From Moorena bouillonii PNG (lineage in GTDB: Bacteria; Cyanobacteriota; Cyanobacteriia; Cyanobacteriales; Coleofasciculaceae), in the NCBI RefSeq assembly GCF_001942495.1, contig NZ_MKZS01000001.1:4344359-4383014 (forward strand): a stretch of 38,656 bases of DNA. The letters are read 5' to 3'. The notes under the pieces were generated by a model that was not told the origin of the DNA, ran no database searches, and worked only from the letters and a program-made list of their open reading frames with translations. Below are positions 1,492 to 37,894 of this stretch, in pieces (position 1 is the first letter of the stretch; each line of letters opens with the position of its first letter). Both the position numbers and the translations under genes were made by a program.

Positions 1492-2217
1492 CTAAAGAAT
1501 CCCGGCACTGGGCATCAGAGTCAAGGACTCGATGACAGCCTGTTGTGGTAGCTCGACGGTGTGCAAAATTGACTGGGCAACAATTTCTGGGGTCAACATC
1601 CCTGACCGATTTAATTGCACCTGAACTGTATCTGTATCCCATAAAGGGGTATTGACTGCACCTGGACAAATGCTTACTACCCGGATACCATGGCGGCTTT
1701 CCTCCGCTGCTAGAGTCTTGGAGAGGGCAATCATACCTGCCTTACTAACGCTGTAAGCCCCCCATTTAGGCAAGGCTTGCTTAGCAGCAATTGATGCCAC
1801 GTTAACGATCGTGCCTCGGTGTTGGGCACGCATAGCAGGCAGAACCCCCTGGATGCACTGAAACACACTGGTCAGATTCAGGTCAATTAAGCGCTGCCAA
1901 TCTGATAGCGGTGTCTCACTGAGATATCTAGCGTAAGCCATTCCCGCATTATTGACGAGAATAGTGATAGGAGCAAAATCTGCTGTGATTTTTTCTATCC
2001 AAGATCTAACCTGCTCCAGATCAGCTAAATCATATGGATAAGCCTTAGCTTGCACCCCAGCTGCCCTAGCAGCAGCAGCAACCATCTCTAAGTTGTTCCG
2101 GGAACGGCTGACTAAGGCTACACTGATTCCTGCCTTAGCAAAGGCTAAAGCTGTTTCCTTGCCAATACCACTGCTCGCTCCAGTAATTATGGCGCGTCGC
2201 TCAACAGTCGATATCAT
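1492..2217 (-). CDS. Short-chain dehydrogenase/reductase (SDR)
   Basis: Classical SDR, an NAD(P)-dependent oxidoreductase with a Rossmann fold of about 240 residues. Visible motifs (numbered from a TTG at 2220): cofactor loop TGASSGIG (residues 13-20), NNAG (90-93), catalytic Ser143, Tyr156 and Lys160 in YSVSK, and CPGAVNTP after it. An Arg-rich SRSR segment after the second strand favours NADP(H). The ATG at 2217 is the likelier start. Its TGATG overlap with the stop of the short upstream frame could allow translational coupling. The substrate cannot be told from sequence; lying next to folE hints at pterin or folate metabolism, but that is only context. Confidence 0.9.
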   Translation of the reverse strand: MISTVERRAIITGASSGIGKETALAFAKAGISVALVSRSRNNLEMVAAAARAAGVQAKAYPYDLADLEQVRSWIEKITADFAPITILVNNAGMAYARYLSETPLSDWQRLIDLNLTSVFQCIQGVLPAMRAQHRGTIVNVASIAAKQALPKWGAYSVSKAGMIALSKTLAAEESRHGIRVVSICPGAVNTPLWDTDTVQVQLNRSGMLTPEIVAQSILHTVELPQQAVIESLTLMPSAGIL

Positions 2218-2492
2218 CAAATTTTACAAGATTTTGTTACAAATGCTTGTCTACCGTCTCGATAAAACTCAGGATTGATCCGAAGCAAATGCCCACATAA
2301 CGCAGGTATTTGGTTTAAATCTGCTAGCTTTAAATCTGCTAGGTCAGCTACCAGGTCACCAGAGGTGGACGCCGTTGAATTAAGCTTAGGTTTAGTGAGT
2401 TGGTTAGGCACCGAGATTATAGACACTCCCTTAGGGCAGTTAATCTCCAAAGGCACAGCTAGGTTTTCGGTGTATCCGAAATTGTTTAGCAA
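2217..2492 (-). CDS. Small hypothetical ORF overlapping the SDR start
   Basis: An open frame of 91 codons whose TGA overlaps the SDR start as TGATG. It begins with TTG, has no convincing ribosome site, shows a short internal repeat (DLADLKLADLN) and no domain I recognise. It may be a small leader-like gene coupled to the SDR or just a chance frame in its 5' region. Weakly supported. Confidence 0.3.
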   Translation of the reverse strand: MLNNFGYTENLAVPLEINCPKGVSIISVPNQLTKPKLNSTASTSGDLVADLADLKLADLNQIPALCGHLLRINPEFYRDGRQAFVTKSCKI

Positions 2493-2520
2493 ACTGACTA
2501 ACTACCTTAGACTATTGTGA

Positions 2521-2857
2521 ACAATTGTTAATTGTATCATCATCCGCAGACTATTCAGCTACCATTCGGCTGTCAATAATAAACTTTGAGGATAGAAAAA
2601 TCGGGATACGGTAATTCGTAATTGGGCTACCAACCTAAACATCAGACAAAATGCGGAGCATGATTAGCTCAATACCCCAGAGGATGAACCCCTTGCTATA
2701 TATAGCAATATCATCTGTCACGCCTTAAGTTAGTAGCCGTAGCCGTAATTGGCAGGCGAACCTAACTATACTTGAGATTAGTCCTTAGTTCAGCAGCAAC
2801 GCCTTGGCGACTTGACAGATAGACCTCTGACCCATTTACCTGTTAACTCCTTCAAGA
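2521..2857. other. Intergenic between accA and the folE/SDR group
   Basis: About 340 bp without a credible gene. It holds short runs such as TATATATAGCAATATCA near 2697 and TAGTAGCCGTAGCCGTAATTGG near 2730. Promoters of the minus-strand genes probably lie here, but none could be assigned. Confidence 0.45.
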
Positions 2858-3832
2858 CTAACTTTCTAGAAAAATCCCCATATTTCGGAACTTCTGATAG
2901 CGCAAATCCCGGCGCTGTTGAGGGGTTAATTGAGTTAGTTCTGCCAGGTTTTCCAATAGAGCCTCTTTGAGGATAGAGGCGGTTGCCAAGGGATCCCCAT
3001 GAGCTCCTCCTATGGGTTCCGATAAAACTTTGTCAATAATCCCTAATTCTTTGAGGTCCCAAGCGGTAATCTTTAACGCTGCTGCTGCCTGCTGTCCTTG
3101 GCTAGCATCTTTCCAAAGGATGGCGGCACAAGCTTCTGGGCTAGCTACGGTGTAGACAGCGTTTTCAAACATCAAAACCCGATCACCAACACCAATTCCC
3201 AAAGCACCGCCGGAACCTCCTTCACCAATGACTGTACACATAATGGGGACATCCAGACGAAACATTTCTCGGAGGTTATAAGCGATCGCTTCTCCTTGTC
3301 CGAGTTCTTCCGCCTTTACACCAGCCCAAGCACCAGGGGTATCAATAAAGGTCAAAATTGGCATATCAAAGCGATTAGCGTGTTCCATCAGCCGCATCGC
3401 TTTACGGTAGCCCCCAGGGGAAGCCATCCCGAAGTTGCGAGCTACATTATCTTTAGTATCACGACCTTTTTGATGTCCTAATATTACCACAGCACGACCC
3501 GCCAAAGAGCCAATCCCCCCTACTAGGGCTGGGTCATCATAACCACCGCGATCGCCATGCAACTCAAACCACTCATCAGTGATTGCCTGAATATAATCGA
3601 GGGTACTTGGACGCCTAGGGTGACGGGCTAGCTGTAGCCGTTGCCCTGGTGATAAACTATTGAAAATTTCCTGACGCAGTTGGATTGCTCTTGTCTCCAG
3701 TTGGCGGATTTGGTCAGAAACATCGACATTGTTTTCCTCTGCGAGTTCCCGAATTTGCTTAATTCGTTTTTCCAGTTCAACCAGTGGCTTTTCAAAGTCG
3801 AGACTAAAGGTTCTGTTTTTTGCTGGTGACAT
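2858..3832 (-). CDS. accA: Acetyl-CoA carboxylase carboxyltransferase subunit alpha (AccA)
   Basis: One half of the carboxyltransferase that moves CO2 from biotin-BCCP to acetyl-CoA, giving malonyl-CoA for fatty acid synthesis; it works with AccD. The 324-aa length is normal. The N-terminal helical region ([19 protein letters not shown]) is followed by [64 protein letters not shown] and [19 protein letters not shown], all hallmarks of AccA. The start is an ATG (MSPAKNRTF). Malonyl-CoA is also the extender for the olefin PKS in this window, although the genes are not clustered. Intact. Confidence 0.97.
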
Positions 3833-4737
3833 AGTTACTGGTCATTCGTCAATGGTCAGTGGGTTTCTGTGTAAGATTACAGGCCATAACTCCAGAGTAG
3901 CAAACCCATCTAAAGAGATGGGAATCCCACGCTTCTGTTATATCATCTGGTAGGATGAAAATTTTTGACAACTTAATATTTGCCTCAATCATTTGCTTCA
4001 ATTGACCCTCTGCCCATCTGTCCATCTAGGGATCAGTGTTTAAGAGACCGTTTATAAAGTGATTATTAAGAAGCAAGGCGACGTACCATGAGTCGAATCA
4101 TTGCGATGTAAATAAGAGCCTCGCTCACAACTGGAACGTGTTTCATAGTCCACCACTAAACGTCGACAACCCATAAACCAAGAAAAGGTACGTTCCACAA
4201 CCGATGCGTCGAGGTAAAATTTGAAATCCTGATTCTGTTTTTTGAATGACTTCTACAAGAGCCGTACATAGTTGATCCACCACACGAGAAAAATTAGGAC
4301 CACTATATCCACCATCAACCCAAAGAACGTTTCAAGTCGGATAGTTCTTCAATAGCTTCTAGCATGCAAGCTATACCTCCTAATCTTTCTGGAGTATACG
4401 CTTGCTGTAACTACTACTGCCAGTAATAACCCAAGGCTCATCTACCAGAATATGGCGCTTTCTTCCTTTGACTCTTTTCCCACAATCATTGCCATATACT
4501 TCCCCCTTTTTCCAGTGGTTTTCACTGATTGAGAATCGGTTGCTACCGGCAGATGGTTTTTCTTGTCGCTCTACACTTGTTCTCAACTGACGCCTGAGTT
4601 CTTGATTAATTTTTTTCCACACTCCCTTACGCTCAAAAACTCGAAAATAACTGTATACAGTTGAAGACGGTGGCAAATCCTTGGGCATCATTTCCCACGA
4701 ACATCCTGTCAATAGAACGTAGAATATACCGTTAACT

Positions 4738-5887
4738 CTCAGTACAGGACAAAAGGCTTGAAAATTTGACCAGGGTGGGGTTTCATCAGAATTACCACAG
4801 TCATCAGAAACCCCATGAATCAATAAGCGCGAACTTAAGAAAGCTCTCCAACCCCATCTTGACTGGCATGGAGCCAGACTCTCGTTTAAGCGCCATGTTC
4901 TTGCTAGCGCTGATCAAAGTAAAAACTGTCAACCTCAGTGAGCTGGCATTAGGTATGGGATGATTAGCGTTACCAGAGTCGAACTACAAACGCATGCAAC
5001 GGTTTTTCCGAAAATTTGACATCGATTACACCGTGATCGCGCTTACTAGTGGTAAGTTGGATGCAAATTCCGTGTGGAGTGGGTATTGAGTCTAGATCGT
5101 ACTACCTGGGAGTTTGGCTCTCGGTGCTACAACATCCTAACCTTAGGCATTGTCCATGAAGGGGTGGCCTTTCCTGTACTGTGGTGGATACTCAACAAAA
5201 AAGGAAACTCCAACAGCGATGAGCGGATGCGATTTATCGAGCAGTTGTACAAAATTTTTCCGGATGCTCAGGTCTCCTGCTTGTGCGCCGACCGAGAGTT
5301 CATTGGGTTTTGCCTGGGTACGCTATCTACGGCTCGTGCCATCAATGCCATTTCGATTGAGGATTCGAGCCACAGACAAGATTGAGCACAATGGCCGTTC
5401 TCTGGCAGCCCAAGTAGTCTTTGCCCACTTGAAGGTGGGTCAATCCCAAACCCTCAAGGGAACTAGTCGCGTTTGGGGTCAATGTGATTGCCGTTGAGGG
5501 ATTGCGCCTTGATAATGGCAAGCTTTTGGTGGTCATTGCTCCTGCCAACAGCGAGGGGCTGGTGGCCGATTACGCTTTGCGCTGGGGTATTGAAACCCTA
5601 TGCAGGCATTTTCAAGACTCGGGGCTAATGCCCTTGAATCGACTCACTTCACCGAGGCAGAGCGCTTGGGAAAGCTCTTTGCGCTTTTGACTTTGGCATT
5701 ATGCTGGTCGATGCGAACAGGGTTATTCCTTCATCAGCTCCAGCCCATTTCGATTAAAAAACATGGTCGCCGAGCCAAGAGTATTTTCCGATATGGTCTT
5801 GACCATCTTCGTCATATTGTACTTAATCCTTCTTTCCTCAATCAAAGAGATTTTCTTCAATCTCTGCAGTTTTTGTCCTGTACTTAG
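4738..5887 (+). mobile_element. IS4-family insertion sequence with 10-bp target duplication
   Basis: The left end CTCAGTACAGGACAAAA at 4738 mirrors the right end, whose complement reads CTAAGTACAGGACAAAAA, closing at 5887. It is flanked on both sides by the identical 10-mer ACCGTTAACT (4728-4737 and 5888-5897). The length is 1,150 bp. The perfect duplication means this element jumped into the IS5 transposase gene and both junctions are preserved. Confidence 0.93.
4766..5887 (+). pseudogene. IS4-family DDE transposase, multiply frameshifted
   Basis: Pieces in successive frames rebuild an IS4-type transposase: LLALIKVKTVNLSELALGMG followed by an in-frame TGA at 4961-4963, then ESNYKRMQRFFRKFDIDYTV, SLDRTTWEFGSRCYNILTLG (first catalytic Asp), CLCADREFIG (second Asp), KIEHNGRSLAAQVVFAHLKV, YALRWGIETL (the Y-R-E signature) and ESTHFTEAERLGKLFALLTL. 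The last frame ends HSLQFLSCT-like at 5887, at the right inverted repeat. At least four frame changes (near 5050, 5310, 5480 and 5610) mean it cannot make an active enzyme. Confidence 0.88.
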
Positions 5888-6242: not shown

Positions 6243-6288
6243 CAGTTGACCATGTAAACTGCAACGATATGATTACAAAAATCCCCCA

Positions 6289-6327
6289 AGCCTTCATCCC
6301 CGCTCTTTAGAGACGGGGATGAAGGCT
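6289..6327 (+). other. Left-end hairpin of the tnpB element
   Basis: AGCCTTCATCCCCG pairs with CGGGGATGAAGGCT around the loop CTCTTTAGAGA, a 14-bp perfect stem. Its CCCCG...CGGGG tip resembles the hairpin at the other end (10183-10205), as expected for the subterminal structures recognised by TnpA in IS200/IS605 elements. Confidence 0.65.
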
Positions 6328-7054
6328 CGCAGCGGCTTTAGCCGCCGTGAGAAAAATATTCTGGGAATCTCCAAAATTTGTCGCTGAATAGTATAGACTA
6401 AAATAGTAACAGTTGAGGTCGAAGCTGGTGATAATAATTGAGTTCAAAGCATACGGTAAAAAGCACCAATACCAAGCCATTGATGAGGCTATTCGGACGG
6501 TAAGATTTATCCGCAATAGCTGCATCAGGCTCTGGATGGACAATAAAGGAACTGGAAAATATGACTTAAGCAAATACTGCAAGGTCTTAGCCAAACAATT
6601 CCCATTTGCCGATGAATTGAACTCTACCGCTCGTCAAGCTGCTGCTGAAAGGGCATGGTCATCAATTGCCCGCTTCTACGACAACTGCAAGAAAAAAGTC
6701 CCTGGCAAAAAAGGTTTCCCTCGGTTCCAAAAGCACTGCCGAATCACGTTCAGTGACAAAAAGGGTATTGGGAAACTCAAACTCAAAGGTACATGGGATT
6801 TGTGGCGTTTCGAAAAAAAGCAAATCAAGAGGGTTAGGATAGTCCGACGAGCTGACGGGTACTATGTTCAGTTTTGTGTTTCAGTTGATGTCAACGAAGA
6901 GGTGAAACCAACTGGAAGCACTGTCGGACTAGATGTAGGGCTTAAGGATTTCTATACGGATTCCCAAGGTAATACTGAACCAAACCCTCGGTTTTATAGA
7001 ACAGGAGAAAAACGTCTAAAGTTTTATCAACGTCGAGTTTCCCGAAAAAATAAA

Positions 7055-7084
7055 GGCAAGGCCGTAGGCCACGCTTCGCGAACA
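7055..7084. repeat. Palindromic repeat fixed in frame inside tnpB
   Basis: GGCCGTAGGCCACGCTTCGCGAAC belongs to the same GC-rich family as the repeats at 31-82 and 38298-38323. It encodes the odd GKAVGHASRT stretch between the usual SRKNKG and ANRKKAINKLGR segments and keeps the frame open. Confidence 0.65.
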
Positions 7085-7168
7085 GCCAACCGCAAGAAAG
7101 CAATTAATAAACTAGGCAGAACGCACCTTAGAATAAGTAGGCAGCGTGAGGAGCATGCCAAGAGACTG

Positions 7169-7276
7169 GGAACGAAGTTACCGTAAGAATAAAGAAGCCT
7201 TTATGGTTAGTCGGCTATGCAGAAAAGGGTTAAATCTTTGTTATTAAGGCTTCTTTATTCTAAGGTTTCGTCTCCG
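7169..7276 (+). mobile_element. MITE-like element, copy 2 (in tnpB)
   Basis: 108 bp between codons CTG and GCA of tnpB; removing it restores KRL-ARCVIRSNDLVAYEDL. Its arms AATAAAGAAGCCT and AGGCTTCTTTATT form an inner inverted repeat. The outer ends are GAACGAAGTTACCGTAAG and CTAAGGTTTCGTCTCCG, imperfect inverses. It introduces in-frame stops (CCG TAA). The target duplication is at most GG. Confidence 0.8.
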
Positions 7277-7501
7277 GCACGCTGCGTAATCCGGTCTAAC
7301 GACCTGGTCGCCTATGAAGATCTAAGGGGAAAAAATCTGGTTAAAAACCACTGTCTCGCTAAGTCTATTAATGATGCAGGTTGGTATCAGTTCAGGAGTG
7401 CGATTCGTTAGCTATAAACCTTATCAGATAAGGATTTGGAGGATTAGCTGCTTGGTCTAAGAACCATGACAACTTGATAACCATGGTGGTGAAAATCCAC
7501 C

Positions 7502-7605
7502 CCGGAGACAAAACCTTAGAATAGTGCAGCCTTAGTACAAAACCTTACTCCTATGATGCCTAACCTGCTGACCATAAAGGCTGCACTATTCTTTCGGTAA
7601 TTTCT
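7502..7605 (-). mobile_element. MITE-like element, copy 3 (in intron domain I)
   Basis: Ends CCGGAGACAAAACCTTAGAA and the complement of AGAAATTACCGAAAGAATAG match the copy at 7169-7276 in reverse orientation, and ATAGTGCAGCC/GGCTGCACTAT forms the arm. It separates GAAAATCCACC from CCCTCGCGAAATCCGAG in the intron. The right border is uncertain by a few bases. Confidence 0.75.
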
Positions 7606-8080
7606 GACCCTCGCGAAATCCGAGTGACAGCCCTACCCTGATTCATGAACCTAACAAACTCATGGATTGATGCAAGGGTCGAATAGTGAAGCACCCTTAA
7701 CCTGACCGGTGTTAGTAACAGGCAAAGAACCCATGGGTACGAGAGAAAGATACATCTGAATCATCGTCATGGTAACGTAGCGAAATAAGGCTTGAAACGC
7801 TACAGACAAACAGTCAATGGAATAGAGGCTTAAATGGTTTCCTGACCATTTAAGGATTTCCCAAATTATTCCCGGTGAATAGTATCACCCTAAAGGTTCA
7901 CAGAATGGTTATCAGGAACGAATTAAACCCCATATGTACTCTCAGTAAGGTCGATTACTGAGTAGGTAGTTAGCCGGATGTCACATGGGGGAGAGATTGA
8001 GTCAGAAGCCAAAGCCTGGATTAATACCCAGGATATGCTGACGGACTCACGTTATAGGAAAGGTATGGTTGTAAGTAGTA

Positions 8081-9767
8081 ATGAAAATGTCTAAAACTCG
8101 GGGGTTCGCCCCACGGTCGGAATGGAATAAGGTCAATTGGCGGAAGCTAGAAATGACCCTATTTAAGTTACAAAAACGAATATACCGAGCCTCCCAACGT
8201 GGTGATGTCCGCGTGGTAAGAAAGCTGCAAAAGACTCTAATGAAGTCCTGGACTGCCAGAATGATTGCGGTCAGACGGGTCACTCAAGAGAACAAAGGTA
8301 AAAAGACTGCCGGAATAGACGGGGTTAAAGCTTTAACCAATAAGCAGCGCCTCGCCTTAGTAGCCAACCTAAAAGTCGCTAAAAAGGCGCAACCTACCAG
8401 AAGGGTCTGGATTCCCAAACCTGGACGGACGGAAAAACGCCCCTTGGGTATCCCAACCATGTACGACCGTGCTCTACAGGCACTTGCCAAACAGGCACGC
8501 TTAACCTGAATGGGAAGCTAAATTTGAATCTAACTCATACGGGTTCAGACCAGGACGCTCATGTCATGATGCAATCGAAGCAATATTTAAAGGTATCAAT
8601 AAAAAACCCAAATGGGTACTTGATGCTGATATAGCCAAATGCTTCGACAAAATCAACCATAATGCACTTCTAACTAAATTAAATACGTATCCATCCTTAA
8701 GACGTCTAATAAAGTCCTGGCTAAAAGCCGGAGTGATGGATAATGGAACATTCTCACCTACAGAAGAGGGTACTCCCCAGGGAGGGGTAATATCCCCACT
8801 CTTGGCAAATATAGCCCTCCACGGAATGGAAAAGGTTATATGGGATTATGCAAACTCTGTTAAAAAGAAAAAGACCTATTATAAAAGGGGTTTAGTTATA
8901 ATCCGATATGCTGACGATTTCGTCATCCTACACCCCGACCATAAAGTGGTAGAAGAATGTCTTGAAGTCATAGATGAATGGTTAACAGGCATGGGTTTGG
9001 AATTAAAGCCAAGCAAAACAAAAATTGTCCATACGTTTGACGGATTTGATTTCCTCGGATTCAATATTCGCCAGTATAAAGTAGGAAAAAATCACTCAAG
9101 ACAAGGCTTTAAAACCATCATCAAACCATCTAAGGAAGCAATTTTAGAGCATTATGGACAGCTCTCAGAAGCCATAAACAAGCACAGAGCTGCCCCTCAG
9201 GAAGCTTTAATTAGCCACCTAAAACCCATTATAAAAGGATGGTGTAACTACTACAGGTCAGTCTGTAGTCAAGAAACCTTCGATGACTTGGGAAACATGC
9301 TCTGGAACAAACTCCAAAGATGGGGATATAGGAGACATCCCAACAAATCAAAATCCTGGGTAGTCAAAAAATACTGGGGAACCATTGGAGAGGATAAATG
9401 GACGTTTATGACTGGGAAAGACAACTACCTCCCTAAGCACGCCAAAACCGAAATAATACGGCATGTAAAAGTCAAAGAATCCAGAAGTCCTTATGATGGT
9501 GACCTGATTTACTGGGGTACCAGAATGAGAAAGCATCCTGAGATGACCACTCGGAAGGGAAGACTTTTAGAACGCCAATAAGGGAAATGCACTTATTGTG
9601 GCCTTACCTTTAAGGATGGTGATTTATTGGAAACGCATCATAGAAAACCACGCTCCCTAGGTGGAAGTGATAAAGATGAAAATCTGGAACTACTACACCT
9701 ACACTGTCACGACACTAAACATGGAACTAAAACTAACCTTAATGATTTAGATGAAAATCCATTCTAG
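8081..9767 (+). pseudogene. Group II intron 1 reverse transcriptase/maturase, frameshift plus nonsense
   Basis: Reverse transcriptase, maturase and HNH-endonuclease protein of a cyanobacterial group II intron. The N-terminal part (8081-8509) reads WRKLEMTLFKLQKRIYRASQ, GKKTAGIDGVKAL and RPLGIPTMYDRALQALAKQA. A net +1 shift near 8500 then moves the frame to EWEAKFESNSYGFRPGRS, DADIAKCFDKI, EEGTPQGGVISPLLANIALH, catalytic YADD (8907) and the maturase segment GWCNYYRSV. A TAA at 9579-9581 sits where RQKGKC is expected (AAA to TAA), cutting off the HNH domain, which continues open to a TAG at 9765: CTYCGLTF, THHRKPRSLGGS, LLHLHCHDTKH. Two independent lesions point to a dead gene. Confidence 0.9.
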
Positions 9768-9798
9768 AGGTACCAATGTCAAGGGTTCCTATAATGAG

Positions 9799-9874
9799 GA
9801 GCCGTATGATGCGTGCATTGTCACGTACGGTTCTGAAGACGAGTCAGTGGGGTGACTCACTGGCTTAGTTTAAT
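9799..9874 (+). other. Group II intron 1 domains V and VI
   Basis: Domain V: GAGCCGTA pairs with TACGGTTC at 9799-9833, carrying the conserved AGC triad. Domain VI: GAGTCAGTG pairs with CACTGGCTT, ending TTTAAT at the 3' splice site. Structure looks intact by eye. Confidence 0.8.
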
Positions 9875-10182
9875 AATGGTTAGAGCATTTTGGTACTAAG
9901 TTTGGTAGAGTCACTGTCGCAGTGAATCCTGCCTACACTAGCCAAAACTGCTCTGAGTGTGGTGAGGTCGTAAAAAAGTCTCTATCAACTAGGACTCACA
10001 CCTGCAAATGTGGCTGTCAGTTAGATCGCGACCATAATGCCGCTATAAACATCCTCCAAAGAGCCTTGAGTACTGTGGGGCACACAGGAACTTGGGTCAT
10101 AGACCCGAACGCTTTGGGAGAATCGGCCTCTACTCTTCTTGGCTCCGGCCTGGATGAGCAAGCTGACTCTGTGAACAAAGAA

Positions 10183-10205
10183 TCCCCGCGTCTAATGACC
10201 GGGGA
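10183..10205 (+). other. Right-end hairpin of the tnpB element (possible reRNA region)
   Basis: TCCCCG and CGGGGA pair around a short loop, inside the last codons of tnpB. In this family the 3' end of tnpB and adjacent DNA encode the guide (omega/right-end) RNA, so this hairpin is a candidate part of it; that role is inferred from the family. Confidence 0.55.
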
Positions 10206-10215
10206 GTGTCAATAG

Positions 10216-10503
10216 GCGTAGGGCTAATCTAGCGCGGACTTGGCTTAATCCCCAAATCTAGACATAGTGTCATTGCTATTGACCTGAAACTTTGCCAGAT
10301 TGGTGAATTACTGGGGAAAATAGAGATCTCAACAAAAGGATGGGGAAGATTGGGAAGTAATACCATTGAAGATCCACATCATAAGTAGCTTCAGGGGAAT
10401 AAATACCCCAGCTGGTTTTTCTTCCCCGGTCGCCCATAGGCGGGATTCGCACACTACCTGGGATTTTTGATGAGTAAAATTCGTTACACAGCTATCTATC
10501 TCA
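10216..10503. other. Intergenic between tnpB and a signalling-gene remnant
   Basis: No gene seen. GGGG-AATAAATA-CCCC followed by a T-rich run (about 10394-10425) could be a weak hairpin terminator. The right border of the IS200/IS605 element should lie in the first tens of bases. Confidence 0.4.
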
Positions 10504-34998: not shown

Positions 34999-35640
34999 AA
35001 CCAGGGGGCGACCGATGAAGGCGCTCATAGAAGCGAAAGGGGTAAGAGCCTTTCCACGGTCAGGATTCAGGCCAAGTTCCCACCCAAAGGAGCGTATTGA
35101 GATGGATAACTCGGTGAAAACTAGGTTACTCCCGAATCAATGGGTTTCACAGCTAGAGGGTAAAGCCAAAGGAAACCAGAATGTCGAGAAGGTGAACAGA
35201 GGCAGGGAAAGAATCAAAAGGTTGACGAGTAGGAACCGTTGATATAAGGCACCGTAATAAGCAATACCTCTGCCAAAACGACAATGGAGGTAATAGCTCC
35301 AGGATTAGCCTCGCCTTGATGGGGCAATCAGAATCACAAACGGACTCGGTGTAGAGACGGCAACCTGAGATTCGTATCTTCTATGTGTGTAACCGGGTAA
35401 GCCGAGGTTGAGTCCAATATCTAGGTCGATTGATATTGGTAGCCAAATCGTAAGAGGAGGTCTAACTCTGGGCCCGGTAAAAGACTGAACCAAGCGAAAG
35501 CCAACAACCGAAAGGAAACAGGAAAGCCGGAAGGTCATAACTGGTTGGATAGAGGGAAATCCCTCAACTCGTGCAGAGTGCTGAATTTCAGAACTAATTC
35601 CGAGCCAAGGAAAAAATACGTTTTGATTCCCTAATTGTAT

Positions 35641-37536
35641 ATGGAAAAGATAGAATCGAAACCTTCGGGGGACGGTATCGTAACTGAGCAAACCACCAAT
35701 TGGCACTCCATAGACTGGAAAAATGCCTACCGGATGGTTAGGAAACTTAGACGTAGAATTTTCAAAGCGACACGTGAAGGCAACTGGAAAAAGGTAAACA
35801 AGTTGCAGAGGTTAATGCTCCGCAGCTACTCCAATATCCTTACTTCCGTCAGACAGGCTACCCAGATAAATGGTGGAAAAAAAACCCCAGGGATAGATGG
35901 ACAGGCAAAACTTAATCCCAAGGAAAGAGGCGAAATGGTCGATGCCCTCACCACTTACAAAGCATGGAAGCCAATCCCAACAAAACGCATCTACATACCC
36001 AAATCCAACGGAAAACAAAGGCCATTAGGAATCCCTAGCATGACGGATAGATGCCTACAGGCAATCGTCAAGAATGCATTAGAGCCTACATGGGAAGCCA
36101 GATTTGAACCCGTATCATACGGTTTCAGGCCAGGAAGAAGTGCCCATGATGCTAGACAAAGGATATTCCAAAACATATGTGGTGAAAAGAACAGGAAATG
36201 GTGGGTCTTAGACGCAGACATCTCAGGATGTTTTGATAATATCGCCCACGAACCACTCCTAGAAACCATTGGAAGCTTCCCAGCAACACATCTTATTAAA
36301 GAGTGGCTTAAAGCAGGATATGTCTACAAAGACGTATTCTACAATACAGAGGAAGGAACCCCCCAAGGTGGAATAATTAGCCCATTATTGGCCAATATAG
36401 CCCTCCACGGATTAGAAAAAGAATTGGGAATCAAATACAGATGGAGTAGAGACAAAAGGAAGAAAGATGGTGGAGGATGGTACAACGTGACACCTAGGAC
36501 TTACGTCCGCTTTGCTGATGACTTCGTAATCCTAACAGAAAGCGAGGAAGATGCGGCGAACGCTAAGGAAATCACAGAAAAGTGGTTATCTGAAAGAGGA
36601 CTAAAACTATCCAAGGAAAAAACCAAAATAAGCCATGTATCCACAGGATTCGACTTCCTAGGATGGACTTTCCGAAAGTATAAGACCACCAGTAGAAAAA
36701 CGGGATTAATAACCCTCATCAAACCCTCCCAGAAAAGCGTAAAGAAAGTCAAGAATAAACTGAAAGAAGAATTCAAAAAACTCAAAGGGGTATCCCAGAG
36801 AGAAGTGATACATAAACTCAATCCAATAATAAGAGGATGGAGCAACTATCACAGCGGAGCAGTCTCCAAGGAAATCTTCTCACAGCTTGATAACTACGTA
36901 TACTGGAAACTCCAACGGTGGGGTAGACGAAAGCACTCAAAGAAATCTCATGAATGGGTTAATAAAAAATACTTCGGTAAATTATGTCCCGGCAGAGATG
37001 ACAATTGGGTATTTGGAGAAGAAGGATATCACATAAACAAATTCGCTTGGACAAGAATTGAAAGACACACTTTAGTGACTTTCGATAAATCCCCAGACGA
37101 CCCAGGACTAATAGAATACTGGAAGGAAAGGGAAGTCAAGCAGAAAGAAAAAACGGCGAGGAGTAAACTTTCTAGCGGACGAGACAAAATAGCCAACAGA
37201 CAGGGATATAAATGTCCCTTCTGTCAGCAAAATCTAGGTAATTACGATAAAGTGCATCTACATCATATTATGCCAAAAAGCCTAGGGGGTCTCGACAAAT
37301 ACGATCACCTCATCTACCTGCATAACGATTGCCATCACTCCATCCATGCCTTGGGTGCGACTAATCCCGACATACAACAAATGTTAAGAAGCGGGATGGA
37401 AAAACCCTCTAAGACCCGGAACAAAAGCCAAAAGGTACAAAACCGGAAATCGAAGAAAAGCAAGTCGCAAAAAATAACGTGTTCAAAAGGAATTAGGTGC
37501 GCCGTGTACTTGGAGACTTGTTCGCACGGTGCTTAG
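35641..37536 (+). CDS. ltrA: Group II intron 2 reverse transcriptase/maturase with HNH domain
   Basis: 631 aa from ATG 35641. N-terminal region WKNAYRMVRKLRRRIFKATR; RT motifs GKKTPGIDGQAKL, RIYIPKSNGKQRPLGIPSMT, YGFRPGRSAHDA, DADISGCFDNI, EEGTPQGGIISPLLANIALH, then catalytic FADD at about residue 293 in place of the common YADD, and FDFLGWTFRKYKT. Maturase domain X around GWSNYHSGAVSKEIFSQLDN. C-terminal HNH endonuclease from about 525: CPFCQQN, HLHHIMPKSLGGLDKYDHL, YLHNDCHHSIHA. No frameshift. It promotes splicing and retrohoming of its host intron. Oddly, the frame runs to a TAG at 37534 so its last residues (CAVYLETCSHGA) are read from domain V. It could also help the dead intron in tnpB, though specificity makes that doubtful. 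Confidence 0.93.
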   Translation: MEKIESKPSGDGIVTEQTTNWHSIDWKNAYRMVRKLRRRIFKATREGNWKKVNKLQRLMLRSYSNILTSVRQATQINGGKKTPGIDGQAKLNPKERGEMVDALTTYKAWKPIPTKRIYIPKSNGKQRPLGIPSMTDRCLQAIVKNALEPTWEARFEPVSYGFRPGRSAHDARQRIFQNICGEKNRKWWVLDADISGCFDNIAHEPLLETIGSFPATHLIKEWLKAGYVYKDVFYNTEEGTPQGGIISPLLANIALHGLEKELGIKYRWSRDKRKKDGGGWYNVTPRTYVRFADDFVILTESEEDAANAKEITEKWLSERGLKLSKEKTKISHVSTGFDFLGWTFRKYKTTSRKTGLITLIKPSQKSVKKVKNKLKEEFKKLKGVSQREVIHKLNPIIRGWSNYHSGAVSKEIFSQLDNYVYWKLQRWGRRKHSKKSHEWVNKKYFGKLCPGRDDNWVFGEEGYHINKFAWTRIERHTLVTFDKSPDDPGLIEYWKEREVKQKEKTARSKLSSGRDKIANRQGYKCPFCQQNLGNYDKVHLHHIMPKSLGGLDKYDHLIYLHNDCHHSIHALGATNPDIQQMLRSGMEKPSKTRNKSQKVQNRKSKKSKSQKITCSKGIRCAVYLETCSHGA

Positions 37537-37560
37537 GGGGCGAAGCGGGGGCAACCCCGC
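37496..37560 (+). other. Group II intron 2 domains V and VI
   Basis: GCGCCGTG pairs with CACGGTGC as the lower stem of domain V (8 bp), with a GAGA apical loop. Domain VI follows: TAGG...CCTA closing, inner GCGGGG-GCAA-CCCCGC hairpin, and an A in CCGACC near the 3' end as possible branch point. The last codons of the maturase overlap domain V. Confidence 0.7.
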
Positions 37561-37572
37561 CGACCTACCCAA

Positions 37573-37894
37573 TCTTTTATATAGTCCCCCCTGAATGCAT
37601 TTGATCAACCAGAAAAGCACACCATGGATTTTTACACACAGATACCGGATAGGCTAACCGATCGACTAATCTGAGTCTATTTGGTATCTGTGTACATCGG
37701 TCTCGTGCTGAGAAGAGCAAAATGCCAACAGTATTAGCCCCTAAACTTCCTTTGAGCTTATTTTTCTTCCTGTCTTCGCAGTTGACTTATGTATAAATCC
37801 TATCTATAAATCCTGGGGGGGCGACGAAATAAGCTAAAACCCAGACTCTATAAGCGACCTAGCCCTTATACCTCGTTGATAATACTTTCGTTTA
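37573..37894. other. Intergenic after intron 2
   Basis: No gene found. One clear inverted repeat: ACACAGATACC (37636-37646) with GGTATCTGTGT (37683-37693), an 11-bp stem over a 36-base loop, which could be a hairpin terminator or an element end. Repeated ATAAATCCT(G/A) words near 37793-37814. Confidence 0.5.

Follow-up and report, generated by a model that had tools for sequence, protein, structure and literature searches.

Group II introns of one family recur inside tnpB genes of Moorena and related cyanobacteria

In Thermosynechococcus elongatus, group II introns form families with diverged exon-binding sites (EBS), three introns of family F4 lie at a conserved site of ISEL1, an element of the IS200 family, and preferential insertion into insertion elements or other introns was proposed as a route of proliferation (Mohr et al. 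2010, PMC2882425). Group II twintrons are described in T. elongatus (PMC2882425) and in Trichodesmium (PMC4649490). IStrons combine a group I intron with an IS605-type element (Tourasse et al. 2014, PMC4227781). A 2022 survey reports that group II introns of CL type are abundant in cyanobacteria, at positions unrelated to terminators, and asks for the reason of their increase (PMC8919778). Here we analyzed a stretch of 38,656 nucleotides from the 8.3 Mb genome of Moorena bouillonii PNG (C1:4344359-4383014, hereafter the window), in which a tnpB gene is split by a group II intron, and we followed this intron family through related genomes. The family recurs in tnpB genes, some of which form, with their intron, pairs of predicted open frames.

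The family very probably proliferates by retrohoming guided by EBS1, variants of which have more than once gained targets in tnpB genes, at little harm. In this scheme, the excised intron RNA, together with its own protein, would reverse-splice into a tnpB target through pairing between EBS1 and the intron-binding site 1 (IBS1) of the exon, and the intron's reverse transcriptase (RT) would copy the intron RNA into the target. Because the junctions are frame-exact, splicing would then restore the TnpB nuclease frame. tnpB genes being numerous, alike and probably dispensable, a single EBS1 would offer many landing sites at little cost. In this scheme, we infer that the intron enters by reverse splicing, that it is spliced out in the cell and that its presence is neutral for the host.

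In the window's own genome, 21 insertions of the family have a readable 5' border, after removal of two repeated hits beside assembly gaps. TnpB was detected by tblastn in the 500 nt upstream of the border for ten of them (the window, L061, L062, L072, L075, L076 and L264-L267), which fall at six sites. An eleventh, L064, was recognized by a remnant, 40 nt of exon that share 87.5% identity with L075. Nine of the ten targets were also matched by the guided_TnpB profile (NCBIfam), several of them below its cut-off. This profile has 127 matches in the genome, covering at most ~1.8% of the 8.3 Mb if each is counted at full profile length. With an expectation of 2%, 10 insertions out of 21 correspond to a binomial p of ~3e-12, and 6 out of 15, when counted by distinct site, to ~3e-7. 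Two families of DDE transposases, with 82 and 27 matches in the same genome, served as comparator: by eye comparison of positions, none of the 109 matches falls in the 500 nt that precede each of the 21 borders. The closest are downstream of those of L071 and L061, whose introns seem to have been disrupted there by insertion elements. Among all genomes examined, TnpB is found upstream of 18 of 50 insertions (three repeated hits dropped), a biased proportion, as one genome, G039, was retrieved with a tnpB-containing query. The tnpB sites found across genomes number at least nine, by subfamily and codon.

Target recognition was analyzed for the 30 of these 50 insertions that have a readable domain I, by pairing EBS1 with the six bases 5' of the intron, counting G-U as half a pair and retaining the best of three registers. 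The mean was 5.42 pairs out of 6, versus 3.12 with shuffled targets (maximum 3.77 over 2000 shuffles). A single intron clade specialized in TnpB was not supported: on a tree of domain I, the tnpB label needs 6 changes, at least 3 of them forced, and its eight rows are not more clustered than shuffled labels (120 of 500 shuffles as low). This tree leaves out L075, L076, L261, L262 and L077, whose match was too short, as well as copies whose interior is unreadable and three rows that duplicate others exactly.

The age of the introns was compared with that of their exons where several tnpB genes are interrupted at the same codon. At site C (codon HPWYKDI^H), the introns of L243, from Moorena sp. 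SIO3I8, and of L062, from the window's genome, are 99.8% identical, whereas the exons around them are only 73% (295 nt) and 82% (866 nt) identical, so that the intron is the newcomer. Two more loci of the window's genome, L266 and L267, share this site, with 54 and 51 identical nt before an assembly gap. At site D, in the tnpB C-terminus, the introns of L064, L075 and L076 are 99.7% identical across the 325 nt readable in all of them, and the exons of L075 and L076 are 83% identical. Site A is the codon split in the window. Three tnpB genes of SIO3I8 are interrupted there by introns with identical ends (127 and 126 nt), in exons 71-84% identical to each other; the window intron is 94% and 87% identical to these two ends. 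In G039, which belongs to another family, an intron start at this codon is 80% identical to that of the window across 50 nt. Near-identical introns in tnpB exons that are 71-84% alike point to recent retrohoming, and would be its trace rather than that of whole-element copying.

An earlier note on this DNA had asked whether related genomes hold tnpB genes with an intron at the window's codon, and these four genes, in SIO3I8 and G039, answer that they do. A pattern scan for site A in 388 genomes of the order returned 7 matches in 5 genomes, of which 5, in three genomes, are site A; the other two, in G020 and G253, were not counted because their loci lack a longer intron start. Scanning genome contigs for the junction returned SIO3I8 only, in a search that may omit the window's own genome and did not return G039. 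The expectation that such relatives would be undamaged was borne out for exon 1 of L140 (open, 314 aa), but not for L138, broken by a miniature inverted-repeat transposable element (MITE), nor for L139, broken by a stop in another repeat. Exon 1 of L141 is open over 271 aa, not from the usual start. The second exons at site A in SIO3I8 are all three open, and one of them presumably belongs to L140. Two contigs of this genome, C445 and C57, enter unrelated sequence at one place of the intron, 127 and ~126-133 nt from its ends, which is also where other contigs stop. We take this divergence as probable assembly at a repeat.

At other codons, pairs made of a whole intron open reading frame (ORF) and a TnpB frame predicted to be open once spliced are present (L261, L257 and L243). 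The undamaged intron-tnpB relative that the earlier note imagined is thus found cleanly at other codons, and only in part, with L140, at the window's codon. The cleanest pair is L261, in G004, another genus of the family: from a GTG start, the spliced frame has 430 aa and scores 249 bits against guided_TnpB (cut-off 100), while the intron encodes a 604-aa protein with RVT_N, RVT_1, GIIM and HNH domains and has a domain V/VI. In L257, from the same genome, the spliced frame has 441 aa and the intron ORF 576 aa, and the first exon reaches 134 bits with the same profile; no ATG is found near the TnpB start, where TTG are the only candidate codons. In L243, the intron ORF has 565 aa and the spliced frame displays HTH, OrfB_IS605 and TNB domains. 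This copy is not fully undamaged, since a MITE at about 4843-4947 cuts the TnpB tail behind NAAINIRNRAAG, after the NAAIN motif; the remaining tail lies 3' of the MITE. Its near-twin L062 gives a full TnpB frame once spliced in silico, and its intron is misassembled (gap, repeated ORF pieces), which prevents any judgment of the ORF inside it. For L243 and L062, compared after splicing in silico, the ratio of nonsynonymous to synonymous substitution rates (dN/dS) is 0.043, with a dS of ~1.9, near saturation. This low value reflects selection that predates the arrival of the intron. Since the exons diverged before the intron came, it was rejected as evidence for the use of spliced TnpB. At the level of sequence, the insertions, their match to the target, the recurrence at one site of introns far more alike than their exons and the open-frame pairs can be read directly.

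Other histories could be proposed for these observations. The intron might have spread as a passenger, with tnpB elements that already held it being copied by transposition; tnpB genes are indeed numerous and diverse, and some of the MITE-bearing copies are close relatives (L094 and L096). Yet whole-element copying is rejected for three sites, at which the readable parts of the introns are near-identical in contrast to the exons, and tnpB genes with an intron at site A do not group together on the tnpB tree, which makes this history very improbable overall. We also consider unlikely that ordinary junk piled up in neutral DNA, with no special link between intron and tnpB. Many bacterial group II introns do sit among other mobile DNA (PMC4424553), and other copies of the present family are found in repeats, within or next to other introns, and within genes. 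But such accumulation would account neither for 10 insertions out of 21 where ~2% is expected, with 0 of 109 DDE matches just upstream of the borders, nor for repeated insertion at the same codon with a match to EBS1. It is less probable still that intron and TnpB form a selected control pair, in which TnpB would be made only upon splicing. The frame-exact insertions, the open spliced TnpB frames of L261, L257, L243 and L062, the score of spliced L261 and the purifying selection on the L243 and L062 exons would all suit such a pair. However, the introns arrived too recently, compared with the age of the exons, for selection to tell, their positions vary between TnpB subfamilies, several intron-bearing copies are broken (the window, L072, L138, L139), and in L243 a MITE has cut off the C-terminal tail.

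Retrohoming with repeated gain of tnpB targets is thus the reading that we favor, and several points weigh against it. In the window's genome, 10 of the 21 copies are outside tnpB. The eight TnpB queries used for tblastn were partly drawn from these same loci, and L061 was assigned to TnpB by tblastn only (2e-10). Some of the 30 EBS1 rows are copies of each other and not independent, and the pairing evidence concerns EBS1-IBS1 only. L263 fits only off position (4/6), and L061, L062 and L244 reach 4.5/6, compared to 6/6 for L243; L261 is not among the 30 rows. The interior of the site A intron of SIO3I8, where its EBS1 would lie, was not found. The preference for tnpB may also be merely what numerous neutral targets give to any homing intron. 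Beyond retrohoming itself, there is some small chance that tnpB would be a preferred home for group II introns, whose lineages would turn to it again and again, with the single-stranded DNA or breaks of IS200/IS605-type transposition serving as ready substrates for reverse splicing, and with a lasting, splice-dependent partnership between intron and nuclease.

The features of the window are collected in Table 1. The tnpB element is a dead copy, struck by a MITE, a palindromic repeat and a mobile group II intron. The layers described in the earlier note (MITE, in-frame palindrome, group II intron and second MITE inside the intron) were all confirmed to the base. Its account of four layers in one gene is real but understated, since other tnpB genes also hold members of the intron family, the MITE or the palindrome.

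Table 1. Features of the interrupted tnpB element (window coordinates).
Feature	Position	Strand	Evidence
tnpB element, left end and leader	6283..6412	+	hairpin near 6288-6327; 72-86% similar stretches 5' of seven other tnpB copies
tnpB exon 1, first part	6413..7168	+	Pfam OrfB_IS605 1.1e-14
In-frame palindromic repeat within tnpB	7060..7083	.	one of 69 exact genome copies of GGCCGTAGGCCACGCTNCGCGAAC
MITE disrupting tnpB	7169..7276 (108 nt)	+	in-frame stops; at least 43 genome copies
tnpB exon 1, last part	7277..7397	+	other tnpB copies 74-91% identical
IBS1 (TCAGGA), intron target in 5' exon	7392..7397	+	six bp with EBS1
Group II intron, ends GTGCG...TTTAAT	7398..9874	+	homologues sharing the same ends at many places
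Second copy of the MITE, within the intron's 5' ribozyme portion (putative domain I region)	7503..7604	-	
EBS1 (TCCTGA) in hairpin loop	7840..7845	+	pairs 6/6 with IBS1
Intron-encoded protein, N-terminal part	8081..8509	+	RVT_N 3.8e-33
Intron-encoded protein, RT and maturase part, different frame	8505..9578	+	RVT_1 8.2e-22, GIIM 1.7e-21 (8733-9581)
HNH endonuclease remnant, 3' of stop	9582..9765	+	frame reading; Pfam HNH in homologue L243
Intron domains V and VI	9797..9874	+	Rfam RF00029
tnpB exon 2, zinc finger and DRDHNAA motif	9875..10215	+	Cas12f1-like_TNB 9.4e-15
tnpB element, right end	10130..10218	+	hairpin GAATCCCC..GGGGAGTGTCAA; 75-89% similarity across 83-89 nt in 19 other tnpB copies, ending at 10212-10218

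The gene starts near 6413, and both the OrfB/RuvC and the zinc-finger TNB domains are present on its exons (Pfam). The guided_TnpB profile matches all ten related first exons submitted, five of them above the 100-bit cut-off, and an intron-free tnpB of the same genome, L063, at 294 bits. For a guide (omega) RNA, what was observed is the conserved right end with its hairpin. L063, which has neither MITE nor intron, is continuous at both joins; MITE-free tnpB copies read straight through the borders proposed for the MITE, and joining 7397 to 9875 gives ...GWYQFR-K-WLEHFG, as had been predicted. The intron divides TnpB ahead of its zinc-finger half (Pfam, Rfam), and its ends follow the group II rule (5' GUGYG, 3' AY), with GTGCG at 7398 and AT at 9873-9874. 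Domain V/VI scores 40.1 bits in the window, which is marginal relative to the RF00029 gathering score of 40; the same model gives 55-58 bits in L072, L243, L062, L257 and L261. The RVT_N, RVT_1 and GIIM domains of the RT-maturase are found on broken pieces (Pfam), as the ORF shifts frame near 8509 and runs into a stop at 9579-9581, while the intron ORFs of L243, L257 and L261 are unbroken and include HNH. The earlier note held the gene to be non-functional because of the MITE; with the broken intron ORF added to the in-frame stops of the MITE, the copy is dead at two levels. No TnpA Y1 (HUH) transposase was found among the five neighboring ORFs (Pfam), and one left neighbor (ORF 4383-4823) is an IS4/5-type fragment. 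The element may be mobilized in trans, or dead. The window also contains a second, different group II intron (35635-37573), with an unbroken RT-type ORF of 633 aa and a domain V at 37497-37573.

The MITE occupies one tnpB codon in seven diverged tnpB copies from three genomes (the window's own, G002 and SIO3I8); besides the window, the copies bearing it at this codon are L072, L094, L096, L098, L138 and L144. A single ancestral insertion was not supported, as six MITE-bearing genes are scattered on the tnpB tree (5 changes, 4 forced), and recombination between tnpB genes may have spread it. L072 has no intron at the position of 7397, and holds another intron of the family whose 3' end is eight bases before the MITE. 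The second MITE copy of the window is 77% identical to the first; it is also found in L061 and L071, and absent at this intron place in the other copies compared. Copies of the MITE differ in their stem, most of which still pairs with itself (989 of 1123 cells, compared to a mean of 871 and a maximum of 889 in shuffles; 60 distinct sequences). GG flanks many copies on both sides, which would make the MITE a candidate for the IS607 type, in which GG at both junctions goes with ends shared with an IS607 element. As to the palindrome, 69 exact copies were counted in the window's genome, and none of a control pattern. Fifteen of them lie inside tnpB matches (positions compared by eye; p ~7e-12 at 2%), and 14 of these matches are without stops. 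L072 and L100 have it at the same place of tnpB as the window, and the zinc finger of L062 holds a similar insert (VRVAWPTA) that is missing in L243. Short palindromes that enter reading frames without introducing stops are known as Rickettsia-type in-frame palindromic elements, from which the present repeat differs in sequence and host. On the whole, the tnpB genes of this genome seem to take up small mobile DNA quite generally.

Outside tnpB, the targets found in the window's genome are repeats, other introns, a pentapeptide gene and a Fic gene. All upstream tnpB matches are in the sense orientation. This was considered as a sign of a single-stranded substrate provided by transposition and rejected as non-discriminating, since the pentapeptide, Fic and thymidylate synthase genes (Pfam) are also hit in sense, and so is a gene that we take to be purM-like. 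The thymidylate synthase match (8.1e-08) comes from L255, in G002, where the 5' flank of the intron is an open frame of 201 aa; it would be another housekeeping-type gene carrying an intron of the family. The presumed purM-like gene, split in frame by the intron of L262 (G004, 1578-3458), would need splicing if it is single-copy and essential; Pfam matched nothing on its short first exon. In G001, four identical family introns of 2374 nt (L238-L241, L268) lie in a stretch that resembles domains V and VI of a different group II intron; for one of these twintrons, the outer intron splits a tnpB near codon 221. The introns of L065, in the window's genome, and of L250 and L251, in SIO3I8, share a common site, and that of L065, upstream of another RT ORF, is probably inside another group II intron.

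If the family is of CL type, the acquisition of targets in abundant tnpB genes would be one answer to the question of why such introns have increased. The loci also offer a natural system in which one gene hosts both a retroelement of self-splicing type and an RNA-guided nuclease. As open pairs are available, direct tests become possible of whether TnpB depends on splicing and of how TnpB activity affects the spread of the intron. In addition, the target preference could guide the search for more mobile introns and for EBS of new specificity. In the open-access literature (titles, beginnings of abstracts, and passages of some papers), we found no report of group II introns recurring in tnpB.

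Compared with the F4 introns of T. elongatus, the principle is the same, cyanobacterial introns with diverged EBS at a fixed site of an IS200-family element, as far as the passages of PMC2882425 go, which are silent on whether the ISEL1 site is in tnpB. The differences are that at least nine TnpB-gene sites and more than one EBS1 lineage are involved here, that near-identical introns are found in diverged tnpB genes of two species, and that whole intron ORFs coexist with open spliced TnpB frames. As in IStrons, an intron of self-splicing type and an IS605-type element are found in one unit; here, however, the intron is of group II rather than a group I intron joined to an IS element, and it lies inside the tnpB frame, at varied codons, with the tnpB gene as its target. 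Unlike in the IStron arrangement, the family intron appears to move by itself. As for twintrons, family members are also found inside other group II introns (G001, L238-L241), but among the targets identified in this analysis tnpB is the commonest. As far as the open-access literature shows, what is new is the combination of many sites across several TnpB subfamilies with intron-TnpB pairs that are predicted to be open.

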